A model generated the notes under the pieces. It was not told the origin of the DNA. It saw only the letters and a list, made by a program, of their open reading frames with translations, and did not search any database. The position numbers and the translations under genes are program-made. A DNA stretch of 64,000 bases from Bacillus sp. MM2020_4 (GTDB lineage Bacteria > Bacillota > Bacilli > Bacillales > Cytobacillaceae), in the NCBI RefSeq assembly GCF_011250555.1, contig NZ_JAANMZ010000024.1, positions 1 to 64,000 on the forward strand, in the 5' to 3' direction. Below, one piece after another: positions 4,469-31,646 of this stretch; the first letter of the stretch is position 1; each line of letters opens with the position of its first letter.

Positions 4469-4819
4469 CTAAAATTCGATGAGTCCTAAGCTTACTTGCA
4501 AGGCTTCATCCACTTTCTCCATCATTTCGTCATCGAGATGGGTGATTTTATCGGTTAACCGCTGCTTATCAATTGTACGAATCTGCTCTAGCAGAATGAC
4601 CGAATCTCGTTCAAATCCGTAGCGCTTCGCATCAATTTCTACATGTGTTGGAAGCTTCGCTTTTTGGATTTGAGCTGTAATCGCTGCAACAATCACTGTG
4701 GGACTAAACCGATTCCCGATGTCGTTTTGGATGACAAGTACAGGACGGACGCCGCCTTGTTCAGAACCAACAACTGGGGATAGGTCCGCGAAATATACGT
4801 CACCACGCTTGACAATCAA
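4469..4819 (-). CDS. ndoA: EndoA / MazF-family mRNA interferase toxin
   Basis: 116 aa, the same length as B. subtilis NdoA, with the PemK/MazF opening [20 protein letters not shown] and the conserved [12 protein letters not shown] stretch. The B. subtilis enzyme is a ribosome-independent endoribonuclease that cuts RNA at a U^ACAU-type site and is neutralised by EndoAI. It is the second gene of a two-gene operon four bases after the antitoxin stop, and ends in its own terminator. In B. subtilis the rsb-sigB genes follow; here tex does. Confidence 0.96.
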
Positions 4820-4823
4820 AGGG

Positions 4824-5105
4824 TTACCCTCCGCTTACAAGACGTTCTACAGTATGTTCTGCCTCATATTCTGCCAGAAATGCTTCTGATGCAATTCTAA
4901 GATTGATCTTTGCCATTTCCATGTATCCACGTCTCATCGACTCGCGAATTTGTCTCTTCTTTCGTTCGCGCAAATACATCTTTGTTGCTTGGTAAATAAA
5001 CTCGCTCCGGTTTACATTTTCTTGCTTAACGAAACCATCTAACTCAGTTAAAAGATGTTGCGGTAACTTCACTAAGATTTCCGTAGTTGCGCCGGATTCA
5101 GACAC
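4824..5105 (-). CDS. ndoAI: EndoAI antitoxin
   Basis: 93-aa ribbon-helix-helix antitoxin matching B. subtilis YdcD/EndoAI in length. The near-identical C-terminal half ([13 protein letters not shown], then TVERLVSGG at the end) is the toxin-binding region. The GTG at 5105 was chosen over an ATG two codons upstream: GGAGG lies nine bases before the GTG but only two before the ATG, and the resulting MSES start matches the homologue. It precedes ndoA in the operon. It could also act as a DNA-binding autorepressor, which is inference. Confidence 0.93.
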
Positions 5106-17672: not shown

Positions 17673-18266
17673 ATGGCAGACTTTTTTAACTCCATTTTAG
17701 AATTTTTATCGCAGTTAGGGTACTTTGGTATCGCGCTGGGATTAATGATAGAGATTATCCCGAGCGAGATTGTTTTAGGCTATGGCGGTTATATGATTTC
17801 TCAAGGACATTTAAATTTTGCAGGTGCTGTTATTGCCGGTACCATCGGCGGCACAATTGCCCAATTATTTTTATATTGGGCCGGTTATTATGGCGGACGT
17901 CCCTTTTTGGAGAAATACGGGAAGTATGTCTTGATTAAGAAGAACCATATTGATGTGGCAGAACTTTGGTTTAGAAAATACGGTGCAGGAGTCATCTTCT
18001 CAGCCCGATTCATCCCCGTCGTCAGGCATGCCATTTCCATTCCTGCCGGGATTGCAAAAATGCCCGTCGGTAAATTTACCCTTTACACCGTTGCAGCCAT
18101 TTTGCCATGGTCGATTCTTTTCCTCTACTTAGGAAAGGTGTTAGGCAGCAACTGGTCACATGTGAAAGAATTCGCTCAGCCATATGTGTTGCCCATCATA
18201 ATTGCTGCTGTCGTGTTGGGGGCCATCTACTTTTTAGTCAAAAAAACAAAGAAAACCACCGATTAA
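17673..18266 (+). CDS. DedA family membrane protein
   Basis: 197-aa DedA/VTT-domain protein with four or five membrane helices. The family signature is clear: FSARFIPVVRHAISIPAG with the conserved arginines, and the upstream acidic IEIIPSEIVLGYGG re-entrant region. DedA proteins act as phospholipid (undecaprenyl-phosphate or phosphatidylethanolamine) translocases or affect proton motive force. It has its own start signal (GAAGGTG seven bases before ATG) and is monocistronic. Confidence 0.9.
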   Translation: MADFFNSILEFLSQLGYFGIALGLMIEIIPSEIVLGYGGYMISQGHLNFAGAVIAGTIGGTIAQLFLYWAGYYGGRPFLEKYGKYVLIKKNHIDVAELWFRKYGAGVIFSARFIPVVRHAISIPAGIAKMPVGKFTLYTVAAILPWSILFLYLGKVLGSNWSHVKEFAQPYVLPIIIAAVVLGAIYFLVKKTKKTTD

Positions 18267-18287
18267 GTTCATTTTCGGTGGTTTTTT
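18252..18287. terminator. Bidirectional terminator, DedA gene / 18300 gene
   Basis: Arms AAAACCACCGA / TCGGTGGTTTT with T runs on both strands, overlapping the DedA stop codon and lying 13 bases after the convergent gene. Confidence 0.85.
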
Positions 18288-18299
18288 ACTAGTTCTTTC

Positions 18300-18620
18300 T
18301 CAAGTTGTCTGCTTTGAAAATTTCTCCTGCGCCCAAGCATCCAACCTTTTTACATGCTTTTTCCCAATGGTAAAGCCATATATGATCAGTACCACAATGA
18401 TTAGGGTAAACAGATCCACCTTTTTGGTCGAGATAAAATTAAGAATGCCCATCAACACCTGTGGGATCACTCCCGTTACCGCAAAGAGAACTGTCGCTAC
18501 CTTAAACCAAAAGGTCGATTTTAATCCATATCTCGCATATAACAAGAAAAAAGTTGATGACCAAGCCAATACTTCAAGACACACTAAAATTGTCCACTTA
18601 TTCTCAAGTAAAACGTCCAT
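18300..18620 (-). CDS. Small membrane protein under ykkC/guanidine-I riboswitch control
   Basis: 106-aa protein with about three membrane helices (near 8-30, 37-60 and 68-86) and a basic, amphipathic tail. It is not a recognisable SMR exporter (those have four helices), although the first helix contains a buried glutamate (Glu16 in CLEVLAW) at a place comparable to the substrate-binding Glu of SMR proteins. GGAAGGAG lies six bases before the ATG. It is the only gene downstream of a ykkC-class riboswitch with a transcription terminator, so it is expected to be induced by guanidine or a related ligand. Guanidine efflux or tolerance is inference. Confidence 0.75.
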   Translation of the reverse strand: MDVLLENKWTILVCLEVLAWSSTFFLLYARYGLKSTFWFKVATVLFAVTGVIPQVLMGILNFISTKKVDLFTLIIVVLIIYGFTIGKKHVKRLDAWAQEKFSKQTT

Positions 18621-18642
18621 TTCAAACTCCTTCCTATTAATA

Positions 18643-18696
18643 TAAAAAAAGCCTAGAAGAAATACATCGACGCGCGATTATTTCTCCCAGGCTTTT
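18643..18696 (-). terminator. Riboswitch expression-platform terminator
   Basis: On the minus strand AAAAGCCTGGGAGAAATA pairs with TATTTCTTCTAGGCTTTT, followed by TTTTTTT. The 5' arm is the 3' part of the aptamer core, so ligand-stabilised aptamer and terminator are mutually exclusive: a switch that turns on with ligand. Confidence 0.85.
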
Positions 18697-18780
18697 GTCC
18701 TTCCGTGTCCGCACCATGACAGGTGCGCGTTTTCTCTCGGACCAGACTGGCCAATATGGCCACGGAACCCTAGAAAACCA
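18683..18780 (-). promoter_or_regulatory. ykkC-class riboswitch (guanidine-I likely)
   Basis: The minus strand has the three ykkC signatures in order: CTAGGGTTCCG (18763-18773), CTGGTCCGAGAGAAAAC, and ACACGGAAGGACAAAAGCC followed by GGGAGA. Variable helices are GGCCAATATGGCC-like and GCACC...GGTGC. Subtype 1 senses guanidine; subtype 2 variants sense ppGpp, PRPP or nucleoside diphosphates and differ at a few core bases that I cannot assign with certainty. The gene context (small membrane protein) favours guanidine-I. Confidence 0.9.
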
Positions 18781-18791
18781 GCGTATTTTTT

Positions 18792-18797
18792 ATTATA
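18792..18797 (-). promoter_or_regulatory. -10 box for the riboswitch transcript
   Basis: Perfect TATAAT on the minus strand, about 15 bases before the aptamer. The best -35 box, TTCTTT 16 bases upstream, is weak. Confidence 0.55.
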
Positions 18798-24036: not shown

Positions 24037-24064
24037 TGATTTATTTATAGCTCGATTACCAGCT

Positions 24065-29510: not shown

Positions 29511-29530
29511 AATCCACAGTTTCAAATTTC

Positions 29531-29690
29531 TAAATCGCTGAAACCATATGGTACGGGGGAACCGTGTTTGCGGGTTGATCTACAACCCAGGGGTGAATCC
29601 TTTCAAAAGGTAGGGCTACTCATTGGCCCGAATCCGACAGCTAACCTCGTAAGCGTTATATGAGAAGGAAGGTGGAGCTTGTGCGACATG
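29531..29690 (+). promoter_or_regulatory. c-di-AMP riboswitch (ydaO/yuaA class)
   Basis: Conserved elements in order: CGCTGAAACC, GGTACGGGGGAACCG, GGGGTGAATCC, GGTAGGG, CCCGAATCCGACAGCTAACC and TCGTAAGCG. In B. subtilis this RNA sits upstream of kimA and turns the gene off when c-di-AMP (a signal of potassium sufficiency) is high. The rest of the 29398-29819 gap holds only the promoter and terminator. Confidence 0.95.
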
Positions 29691-29700
29691 GAAAATAATG

Positions 29701-29739
29701 TCTACAAGTCTATTCAAAATGGCTTGTAGATTTTTTTTG
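29701..29739 (+). terminator. Riboswitch terminator upstream of kimA
   Basis: Arms TCTACAAG / CTTGTAGA followed by TTTTTTTT. It is the off-state terminator of the c-di-AMP switch. Confidence 0.9.
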
Positions 29740-29819
29740 TTCCAAAGATATCCTTAGCGACTGTTTTTTTAGTTGCAAAGAGAATACTACTTTTATACTT
29801 AATTCGGTGGTGAACTGCA

Positions 29820-31646
29820 GTGATTTCTTCTATAAAGAGGTTATTAATCGGACGTCCTTTAAAATCAACAGCTTTAGGGGAACAAAAACTCACAAAAACG
29901 AAGGCATTAGCCATCCTTTCCTCGGATGCATTGTCATCCGTGGCCTATGGTCCGGAACAAATATTGATTGTCCTTGTAACATTGGGCACCCTTGCCTTTT
30001 GGTACTCCATTCCCATTGCGGTCGGGGTATTAATCCTTTTAGCTGCCTTAATTCTTTCCTACCGGCAGATAATCTTTGCCTATCCGCATGGCGGCGGAGC
30101 ATATGTGGTTTCTAAGGAAAATTTAGGGGTTAATCCAGGTCTTATTGCCGGTGGGTCATTGTTGGTAGACTACATTTTAACGGTGGCTGTAAGTGTATCT
30201 GCAGGTACCGATGCCATTACATCCGCATTTCCTGCCTTACATGCGCACAATGTAGTCATTGCCATCATTTTTGTCATTTTTATAACCATTTTAAACTTAA
30301 GAGGGGTAACGGAATCCGCCTCTATATTAGCCTACCCTGTTTATTTATTTGTGTTCGCCTTATTTATTTTAATTGGGGTCGGATTATTCAATATCGTAAC
30401 GGGTCGTGTTTCACCCGATTTATCGGCACCGCTTGGGACACCGGTTGCAGGCATTAGTCTTTTTATACTCTTAAAGGCCTTTGCCTCTGGCAGTTCGGCG
30501 CTTACAGGAGTAGAAGCAATCTCCAATGCCATCCCAAACTTTAAAGACCCGGCACCAAAGAATGCCGCGAAAACATTAATGGCGATGGGAACGTTACTGG
30601 CCCTACTATTTTCCGGAATCGTCTTTTTAGCCTATTATTATGGGATTTCTCCCCGCGTCGAGGTAACGGTTGTTTCGCAAATAGCCGAAGAGATCTTTGG
30701 CCGGAATGGCATGTATTACTTTATCCAAGGGACAACGGCCTTGATATTAATCCTTGCGGCCAATACGGGGTACTCAGCCTTCCCGCTGCTAGCTGTGAAT
30801 TTGGCTAAAGATAAATTTATCCCAAGAATGTTTACCATCAGAGGTGACCGGTTAGGTTATTCCAATGGCATCATCATCCTTGGTGTTGCCTCCATCCTGT
30901 TAATTATGTTTTTTGAAGGTCAGACAGAACATCTCATTCCACTATATGCTGTGGGAGTGTTCATTCCATTTACATTGTCACAGACAGGAATGATGCTGAA
31001 ATGGATTCGTGAAAAACCAACGGGATGGGTACCGAAGCTTATTATTAACACCACGGGAGCAATCATTAGTTTTACTGTAACCATCGTGTTCTTTTTAACA
31101 AAGTTCGATCGCGTCTGGCCTGTATTGATTTTTATTCCCATTATCATTTTAATTTTCCATAGAATCAGAAGGCATTATGATTCAGTAGGTGACCAACTTA
31201 GGATTACCACTTGCGAGCCTGCTGCTCTGATTGAAGGCAATGTCATTGTTGTACCTGTTGCAGGAATTACGCATGTGGTGGAAAACTCACTAAATTACGC
31301 TAAATCTCTTTCAGCTGACCAGATTATTGCCGTTTACGTTGCTTTTGAAAGAGAAGACGAAAAAAAGTTTGAAGAGAAATGGAAAAAGTGGCAGCCCGAT
31401 ATCCGACTTGTGACATTACACTCTCATTATCGCAGCATCATCCAGCCATTAACCAAATTTGTTGATACGGTTGAACATAAAGCGAGCGAATCCAATTATC
31501 AAGTCACTGTGATTATTCCACAGTTTATTCCTAAAAAAGGCTGGCACAATATTCTTCATAACCAATCAAGCTTACTGATTCGGTCATTCTTGCTCTATCG
31601 CAGAAATGTAATCATCACGACTGTGCCCTATCATTTGAAAAAATAA
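29820..31646 (+). CDS. kimA: High-affinity potassium importer KimA
   Basis: 608-aa KUP-superfamily potassium/proton symporter, nearly the same length as B. subtilis KimA (607 aa) and strongly similar throughout, including LSSDALSSVAYGPEQIL, FAYPHGGGAYVVSKENLG and the soluble C-terminal domain. Twelve membrane helices are followed by a cytoplasmic c-di-AMP-binding region. The start is GTG, preceded by GGTGG. It is controlled by the c-di-AMP riboswitch and, by homology, the protein is also inhibited directly by c-di-AMP. Confidence 0.96.
   Translation: MISSIKRLLIGRPLKSTALGEQKLTKTKALAILSSDALSSVAYGPEQILIVLVTLGTLAFWYSIPIAVGVLILLAALILSYRQIIFAYPHGGGAYVVSKENLGVNPGLIAGGSLLVDYILTVAVSVSAGTDAITSAFPALHAHNVVIAIIFVIFITILNLRGVTESASILAYPVYLFVFALFILIGVGLFNIVTGRVSPDLSAPLGTPVAGISLFILLKAFASGSSALTGVEAISNAIPNFKDPAPKNAAKTLMAMGTLLALLFSGIVFLAYYYGISPRVEVTVVSQIAEEIFGRNGMYYFIQGTTALILILAANTGYSAFPLLAVNLAKDKFIPRMFTIRGDRLGYSNGIIILGVASILLIMFFEGQTEHLIPLYAVGVFIPFTLSQTGMMLKWIREKPTGWVPKLIINTTGAIISFTVTIVFFLTKFDRVWPVLIFIPIIILIFHRIRRHYDSVGDQLRITTCEPAALIEGNVIVVPVAGITHVVENSLNYAKSLSADQIIAVYVAFEREDEKKFEEKWKKWQPDIRLVTLHSHYRSIIQPLTKFVDTVEHKASESNYQVTVIIPQFIPKKGWHNILHNQSSLLIRSFLLYRRNVIITTVPYHLKK

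Follow-up and report, generated by a model that had tools for sequence, protein, structure and literature searches.

What does a guanidine riboswitch tell us about a gene that has no family name? Guanidine riboswitches have repeatedly revealed what wrongly named or nameless genes do, leading from SMR proteins to Gdx and from a urea carboxylase to the guanidine carboxylase (passages of the review PMC12186494). In a 64,000-nucleotide stretch of the Bacillus sp. MM2020_4 genome (hereafter the window), a first-pass annotation had noticed such a riboswitch, with a competing terminator, ahead of an unrecognised 106-residue membrane protein, and had raised the possibility of a new family for guanidine tolerance or transport. 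The gene, which we call the orphan, stands without a family name under a guanidine switch, and it has two independent links to guanidino compounds and a partition with a known exporter.

The riboswitch is real. On the minus strand, window positions 18784..18682 match the guanidine-I (ykkC subtype 1) model RF00442 end to end (model positions 1–107 of 107) at 91.1 bits, against a gathering cut-off of 63 (E 4e-15), and we found no second RF00442 match elsewhere in the 4.9 Mb draft genome. The originally proposed interval, 18300–18797, contains the whole unit, which lies on the minus strand. In the minimum-free-energy fold, an intrinsic terminator hairpin with a T run occupies 18646..18696 (minus strand), and the 5' arm of its stem starts inside the aptamer, with the final fifteen bases (18696–18682), which form the aptamer 3' strand. 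Terminator and aptamer are therefore predicted to be mutually exclusive, the layout of an ON switch, and the leader RNA from 18784 to 18641 folds with an energy z of −5.0 (0 of 200 shuffles as low), bearing out the competing terminator that had been proposed. A pattern tool for terminators listed neither this hairpin nor a probable terminator at 18252..18287 (minus strand; ACCACCG..CGGTGGT and a T run, by direct reading of the sequence) that the orphan gene would share with the convergent uptA. Direct reading also places a ribosome-binding site, AGGAAGGAG, at 18627..18635 (minus strand), ahead of the ATG at 18620. The promoter-like consensus site ending at 18797 is weak, as it has 9 of 12 matches and two such sites occur in the region where 1.6 are expected. 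Elsewhere in the window, a c-di-AMP riboswitch (101.4 bits) precedes a KimA-like permease gene (Pfam AA_permease_2) at 29526–31646 (plus strand), and a T-box leader (126.4 bits) at 24045–23833 (minus strand) precedes a gene that we take to be arginyl-tRNA synthetase-like.

The ligand of a ykkC RNA can be predicted from a single base. According to PMC6031431, guanidine-I aptamers have an adenosine at position 46 where PRPP and ppGpp aptamers have a pyrimidine, and sorting by this base sets guanidine genes apart from the others. By our own alignment, A46 of the crystal structure corresponds to position 18735 (minus strand) of the window, which is an adenosine and no pyrimidine. We compared 61 guanidine-type aptamers with a search pattern free of any demand for the marker base. 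All 17 linked to the orphan had A there, as did all 10 linked to UAAP/permease genes and 33 of the 34 linked to SMR genes (in the remaining one the base was not located). The purE-linked L158 has C instead, and the NUDIX-linked L117, L138 and, by eye, L161 have G. As expected, the C and G markers of these purE- and NUDIX-linked RNAs appear to fit subtypes 2b and 2c. The 3' block was readable in every orphan-linked (17) and UAAP/permease-linked (10) aptamer and in 14 of the 34 linked to SMR genes. A strict-pattern comparison, which did require the marker base, counted 12 of 33 SMR-linked aptamers (21 did not fit) and 9 of 10 UAAP/permease-linked ones; the truncated aptamer of L030 was left out of both. 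At conserved positions, 15 of the 17 orphan-linked aptamers carry no change, L020 carries one and L050, from Clostridium, carries three.

Bit score alone does not split the groups. The orphan-linked aptamers above the cut-off score 78.6–92 bits and the RF00442 matches of 33–54 bits in these genomes lie ahead of NUDIX (L117, L138, L161) and purE (L158) genes, yet the orphan-linked L020 scores 44.5 bits and the SMR-linked L115 and L116 score 43–44. Gene names were taken from single examples (UAAP1, TIGR03425; UAAP2, TIGR03424; SMR, PF00893; NUDIX; purE); the NUDIX and purE profiles were run on L117 and L158, and L162 (33.2 bits) falls outside the assignment. Because the window aptamer has the marker base and conserved blocks seen before SMR and UAAP genes, unlike those before purE and NUDIX genes, guanidine is its expected ligand, and the subtype that had been left uncertain is largely settled by sequence as the guanidine one. 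Candidate ligands ppGpp, PRPP and NDP were discounted on the marker base and the gene context. In six aptamers (L020, L013, L017, L021, L022 and L116) we observed long inserts in the P2 region, about 60–150 nt between fixed blocks; some are repeat-like, and the conserved blocks are intact in most.

The open reading frame behind this RNA (18300..18620, minus strand) looks genuine, since it is preceded by AGGAAGGAG, has homologues that are 64–99% identical, and shows dN/dS of 0.02–0.06 in the four of nine comparisons with computable dS (dS was saturated in the other five). Upstream, in the same direction, lies a nupC-like gene (Nucleos_tra2; 423.6 bits for TIGR00804, just below its cut-off of 442); downstream, uptA (NF052604, 322.6 bits) is convergent, which leaves the orphan as the sole gene of the riboswitch unit, as had been proposed. 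The protein also proved as unrecognised as first described. No Pfam family reached its cut-off (the best, among matches listed at E up to 1, was Aim19 at E 0.027 and 15.2 bits against 29.5), no NCBIfam or PADLOC family matched, the best PHROGs match had an E of 0.53, PDB sequences compared with a profile of 26 homologues gave a best E of 1.1, and a structural fold comparison gave nothing at an E of 0.001 or below.

An AlphaFold2 model (mean pLDDT 79.9, pTM 0.60) contains helices at residues 8–33, 36–65, 70–84 and 86–105, of which the first three are predicted membrane spans and the last a basic C-terminal helix. Mean counts of lysine plus arginine are 1.0 at the N-terminus, 3.0 in loop 1, 1.8 in loop 2 and 5.8 at the C-terminus, a distribution that suggests a fixed topology with the N-terminus outside and the C-terminus inside, unlike that of single-gene SMR proteins. 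An alignment of 26 homologues (A1) has 19 invariant columns, including E16, W20, R30, Y31 and D94. The buried glutamate seen earlier in the first helix is Glu16 (codon 18573..18575, minus strand); it is present in 26 of 26 sequences of A1 and in 10 of 10 longer relatives (alignment A2), and it is the only invariant acidic residue within a predicted membrane span, D94 sitting in the C-terminal helix.

How firmly is the riboswitch tied to this gene? Homologues at E 0.01 occur in 42 of 193 genomes of the taxonomic family, and 29 places, counting that of the window, hold a close homologue (64–100% identity). Sixteen of the 29 have a guanidine-I aptamer immediately before the gene, namely the window, 12 of the 20 loci L003–L022 and three of the eight loci L023–L030; 14 score above the gathering cut-off, and the two below it are L020, with its long insert, and L030, which is truncated. 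Further afield, among six loci from named genomes, orphan-linked riboswitches occur in Pullulanibacillus camelliae (L048, 88.4 bits) and Clostridium sp. CX1 (L050, 88.2 bits). We saw none in Aneurinibacillus, Caenibacillus and a MAG, and the Pullulanibacillus pueri sequence starts 62 bases upstream of the gene, too close for a verdict, although the tree test labelled it as lacking a riboswitch; 12 of 18 loci (L036–L047) did not enter the riboswitch counts, as apparent repeats of contigs already seen. The unit recurs in five genera, Clostridium among them, and since its surroundings differ between genera, riboswitch and orphan gene seem to move as one. Mapped on the protein tree, the presence of the riboswitch requires 7 changes against 12.7 after shuffling (0 of 500 shuffles as low), a figure to which near copies contribute. 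Between the riboswitch terminator and the orphan gene of P. camelliae, L048 contains a repeat-like stretch (4686–5001), and the aptamers L155 and L160 in two Pullulanibacillus genomes have no evident gene behind them.

The linkage is not universal. The survey of riboswitch-linked homologues that the first-pass annotation had called for came out divided, with 13 of the 29 close homologues lacking the riboswitch, and homologues of this kind had been named in advance as evidence against a guanidine role; that objection holds for the 13, but five of them lie in a creatininase operon, itself another guanidino link. By gene-order reading, seven of the 13 stand behind a gene that we take to be KimA-like (Pfam AA_permease_2), with an insert between the two in L010, one (L016) stands behind a nupC-like gene, and five are located elsewhere. 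A motif scan likewise found no riboswitch beside L031 and L103, the short relatives furthest from the orphan, or beside the longer relatives L104–L112 and L114, where L107 gave a single stray and incomplete motif. Judged by the samples taken, members of the family are rare beyond Bacillaceae and a small number of other Bacillota: in a spread sample it was present in one of 398 genomes across the phylum (the window's own) and in one of seven in the group of Clostridium sp. CX1 (that genome itself), none of 15 candidate stretches in viral contigs was confirmed, and plasmids yielded one match of 35% identity over 77% of the query (Priestia).

The five riboswitch-less homologues L023–L027, from three genera, form one clade (support 99/97) in which the orphan gene follows genes for a creatininase and an NCS1-type permease in the same direction, with gaps of about 63–151 nt. 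The creatininases score 314–317 bits against TIGR04448 (cut-off 235), and the permease was checked by profile at two of the five loci. Creatininase matches above the cut-off number 10 in nine of the 193 genomes, and 5 of the 10 adjoin an orphan; around the other five, tblastn gave no hit for the orphan or for the SMR query, and by eye there are permease-like genes nearby. No known RNA family was found before the operon at E 0.05 in the five loci. Creatinine gives rise to methylguanidine abiotically, and guanidine exporters accept methylguanidine (excerpts of PMC12508155); an exporter would fit this operon, which is probably catabolic. The creatininase operon is a second link of the orphan family to guanidino compounds.

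A further set of relatives consists of Bacillaceae membrane proteins of 205–220 residues (A2: L104–L112 and L114), whose N-terminal 103 residues are homologous to the orphan (hhalign probability 99.5%, E 1.6e-22). They share Glu16 and differ by extra C-terminal membrane helices, and on this profile comparison the orphan is a member of a broader family that includes them; the six long members that we scanned matched no named Pfam or NCBIfam family. Three of the ten are located behind regulator genes, two MerR and one PadR, and in Caenibacillus a TetR-like gene (sub-threshold matches, including a QacR-like C-terminal model) ends just upstream of the relative. TetR-like, MerR and PadR regulators are often found with efflux genes.

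We took a census of the genus, Neobacillus, with a riboswitch search whose stricter filters lose weak matches, and it yielded 68 riboswitch places in 61 genomes: 13 before the orphan, 34 before SMR genes, 18 at UAAP/permease loci, two before NUDIX genes and one, unassigned, at a contig end. Ten of the UAAP/permease places were read directly and eight were assigned by their pairing with a second place about 1.6 kb away, and the SMR assignments include two at a distance (L124, 2.2 kb downstream in a genome that has a nearer one, and L096, about 0.7 kb). Orphan-linked riboswitches occur in 13 genomes and SMR-linked ones in 30, and the two coincide in one genome where 6.4 would be expected (Fisher p 0.0007 one-sided, 0.0011 two-sided, with kinship ignored). 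That one genome, G141, belongs to the window's own species, and its first SMR gene is disrupted (L123); we did not find this SMR riboswitch locus in the window's draft genome, which holds two SMR pairs without a riboswitch. A riboswitch-less orphan is present in nine genomes of the genus, four of which also have a riboswitch-linked SMR. Riboswitch-linked UAAP/permease loci accompany the orphan-linked riboswitch in 4 of the 13 genomes and are missing from the other 9, the window's own included. The disrupted SMR gene at L123 has a piece in reverse orientation.

We propose, at a probability of about 0.55, that the orphan founds a new family of small membrane proteins that lower cellular guanidinium or methylguanidine, likely as an oligomeric exporter that uses Glu16 under a guanidine ON riboswitch. 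At low guanidinium, the terminator would capture the 3' strand of the aptamer and transcription would stop; when guanidinium is bound, P3 would be held, the terminator blocked and the 106-residue protein made, a logic that we infer from the sequence and from the known riboswitch class. The protein would then reduce the cellular content of guanidinium and close relatives such as methylguanidine. As an oligomeric exporter it might bind the cation at the invariant glutamate of helix 1, perhaps exchanging it for protons, and would so work like a Gdx-type SMR exporter from outside that family; ligand binding, transport, direction, coupling and oligomer are what we infer for the orphan system.

The exporter reading draws on the conserved riboswitch linkage, the guanidine-type marker base and conserved blocks, the creatininase link, the partition with SMR, the invariant Glu16 and the TetR-like, MerR and PadR neighbours, and the step from a riboswitch to a new exporter family has a precedent in MATE and PnuC proteins under guanidine-IV riboswitches (described in part of PMC7736828). 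Against it stand the close homologues without a riboswitch, the four genomes that combine a riboswitch-less orphan with a riboswitch-linked SMR, the distant short and longer relatives without one, and the lack of a fold match at E 0.001; the two SMR pairs of the window's own genome may already cover export, and it is unusual for carriers to have three transmembrane helices. Taken together, these observations support the original suggestion of a new tolerance or transport family as a possibility, with the function still putative. A fuller account is tentative and falls somewhat short of even odds: a family of three-helix guanidinium/methylguanidine exporters of about 105 residues, unrelated to SMR by profile, would take the place of Gdx behind the guanidine-I riboswitch of some Neobacillus, have reached other Bacillota as a cassette of riboswitch and gene and have been recruited once into a creatinine-degradation operon, and its larger relatives would export other toxic cations.

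The main rival is that the orphan is no carrier but an accessory or stress protein induced by guanidine, which modifies an SMR pair or the KimA-like permease, or limits guanidinium entry through it. The frequent position of the orphan directly behind the KimA-like gene in the genus agrees with this idea, three helices with a basic C-terminal helix would suit a small regulator, and SMR pairs to act upon exist elsewhere in the window's own genome. Outside the genus, however, the riboswitch-gene unit has no evident KimA-like neighbour by eye (L143, L144, L048, L050), the creatininase operon has none either, and a pure helper should co-occur with riboswitch-linked SMR pairs, which the orphan does not. 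We regard such a role as rather unlikely.

We find it improbable that the orphan instead serves nitrogen supply by taking up guanidine or another guanidino compound. The genomes that pair it with riboswitch-linked UAAP/permease loci and the probably catabolic creatininase-NCS1 operon would be in keeping with import, but most orphan-linked genomes of the genus have no such locus, both the UAAP loci and the creatininase operon bring permease genes of their own, and the partition is with SMR exporters. More improbable still is a leader that was merely inherited and bears no functional relation to the gene, or that responds to a ligand other than guanidine. Its absence from 13 of the 29 close homologues, and its score below the cut-off in two, would suit an inherited leader, yet the unit recurs in differing surroundings as far away as Clostridium, and a different ligand is hard to reconcile with aptamers that mostly keep every conserved position and in no case lose the marker adenosine, whereas NUDIX- and purE-linked RNAs have another base there.

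If the orphan transports guanidinium, as our preferred exporter reading has it, it would rank among the smallest carriers and would have arrived independently at the helix-1 glutamate chemistry of SMR proteins; if it does not, it would be a protein of guanidine stress that acts in a new way. Such a gene goes unmentioned in the portions of the literature that we searched, a scope that lies outside the gene lists of the primary guanidine-I paper, and the excerpted 2025 review (PMC12186494) names Gdx, carboxylase, guanidinase, APC, ABC and MATE-like proteins.

The closest functional comparison is with the Gdx-type SMR exporters (PF00893; YkkCD, SugE), in which, according to sections of PMC9574504, the helix-1 glutamate binds guanidinium and carries protons, and four helices are the rule. 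The orphan resembles them in being a membrane protein of about 105 residues under guanidine-I control, in its single invariant helix-1 glutamate, which recalls the invariant central glutamate of SMR proteins, and in its complementary occurrence in the genus census. It differs in profile, predicted helix number and topology, and had been judged from its layout to be no SMR exporter: no PF00893 match is listed at E up to 1, hhalign of A1 against an alignment of seven SMR sequences (A3) gives a probability of 0.6%, and the model has three membrane-length helices (mean pLDDT 80) in place of four. Nor does it show dual topology or an oppositely charged partner, as its charge is strongly biased towards a basic C-terminus and the unit holds no second small gene. 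A tryptophan stands at Glu+4 in the orphan and at Glu+3 in Gdx (Gdx numbering from the same sections of PMC9574504).

A second comparison is with the MATE and PnuC proteins under guanidine-IV riboswitches, which the portion of PMC7736828 concerned with them proposes as exporters on the ground of that control. Like these, the orphan is a non-SMR membrane protein tied to guanidine by a riboswitch, but it comes from a different family, with a Pfam match to neither (only the sub-threshold Aim19). The RNA, by contrast, agrees with other guanidine-I riboswitches (RF00442) in full length, conserved blocks, marker adenosine and terminator overlap, and we saw no difference; the riboswitch itself is ordinary, and the new part is the gene that it regulates.
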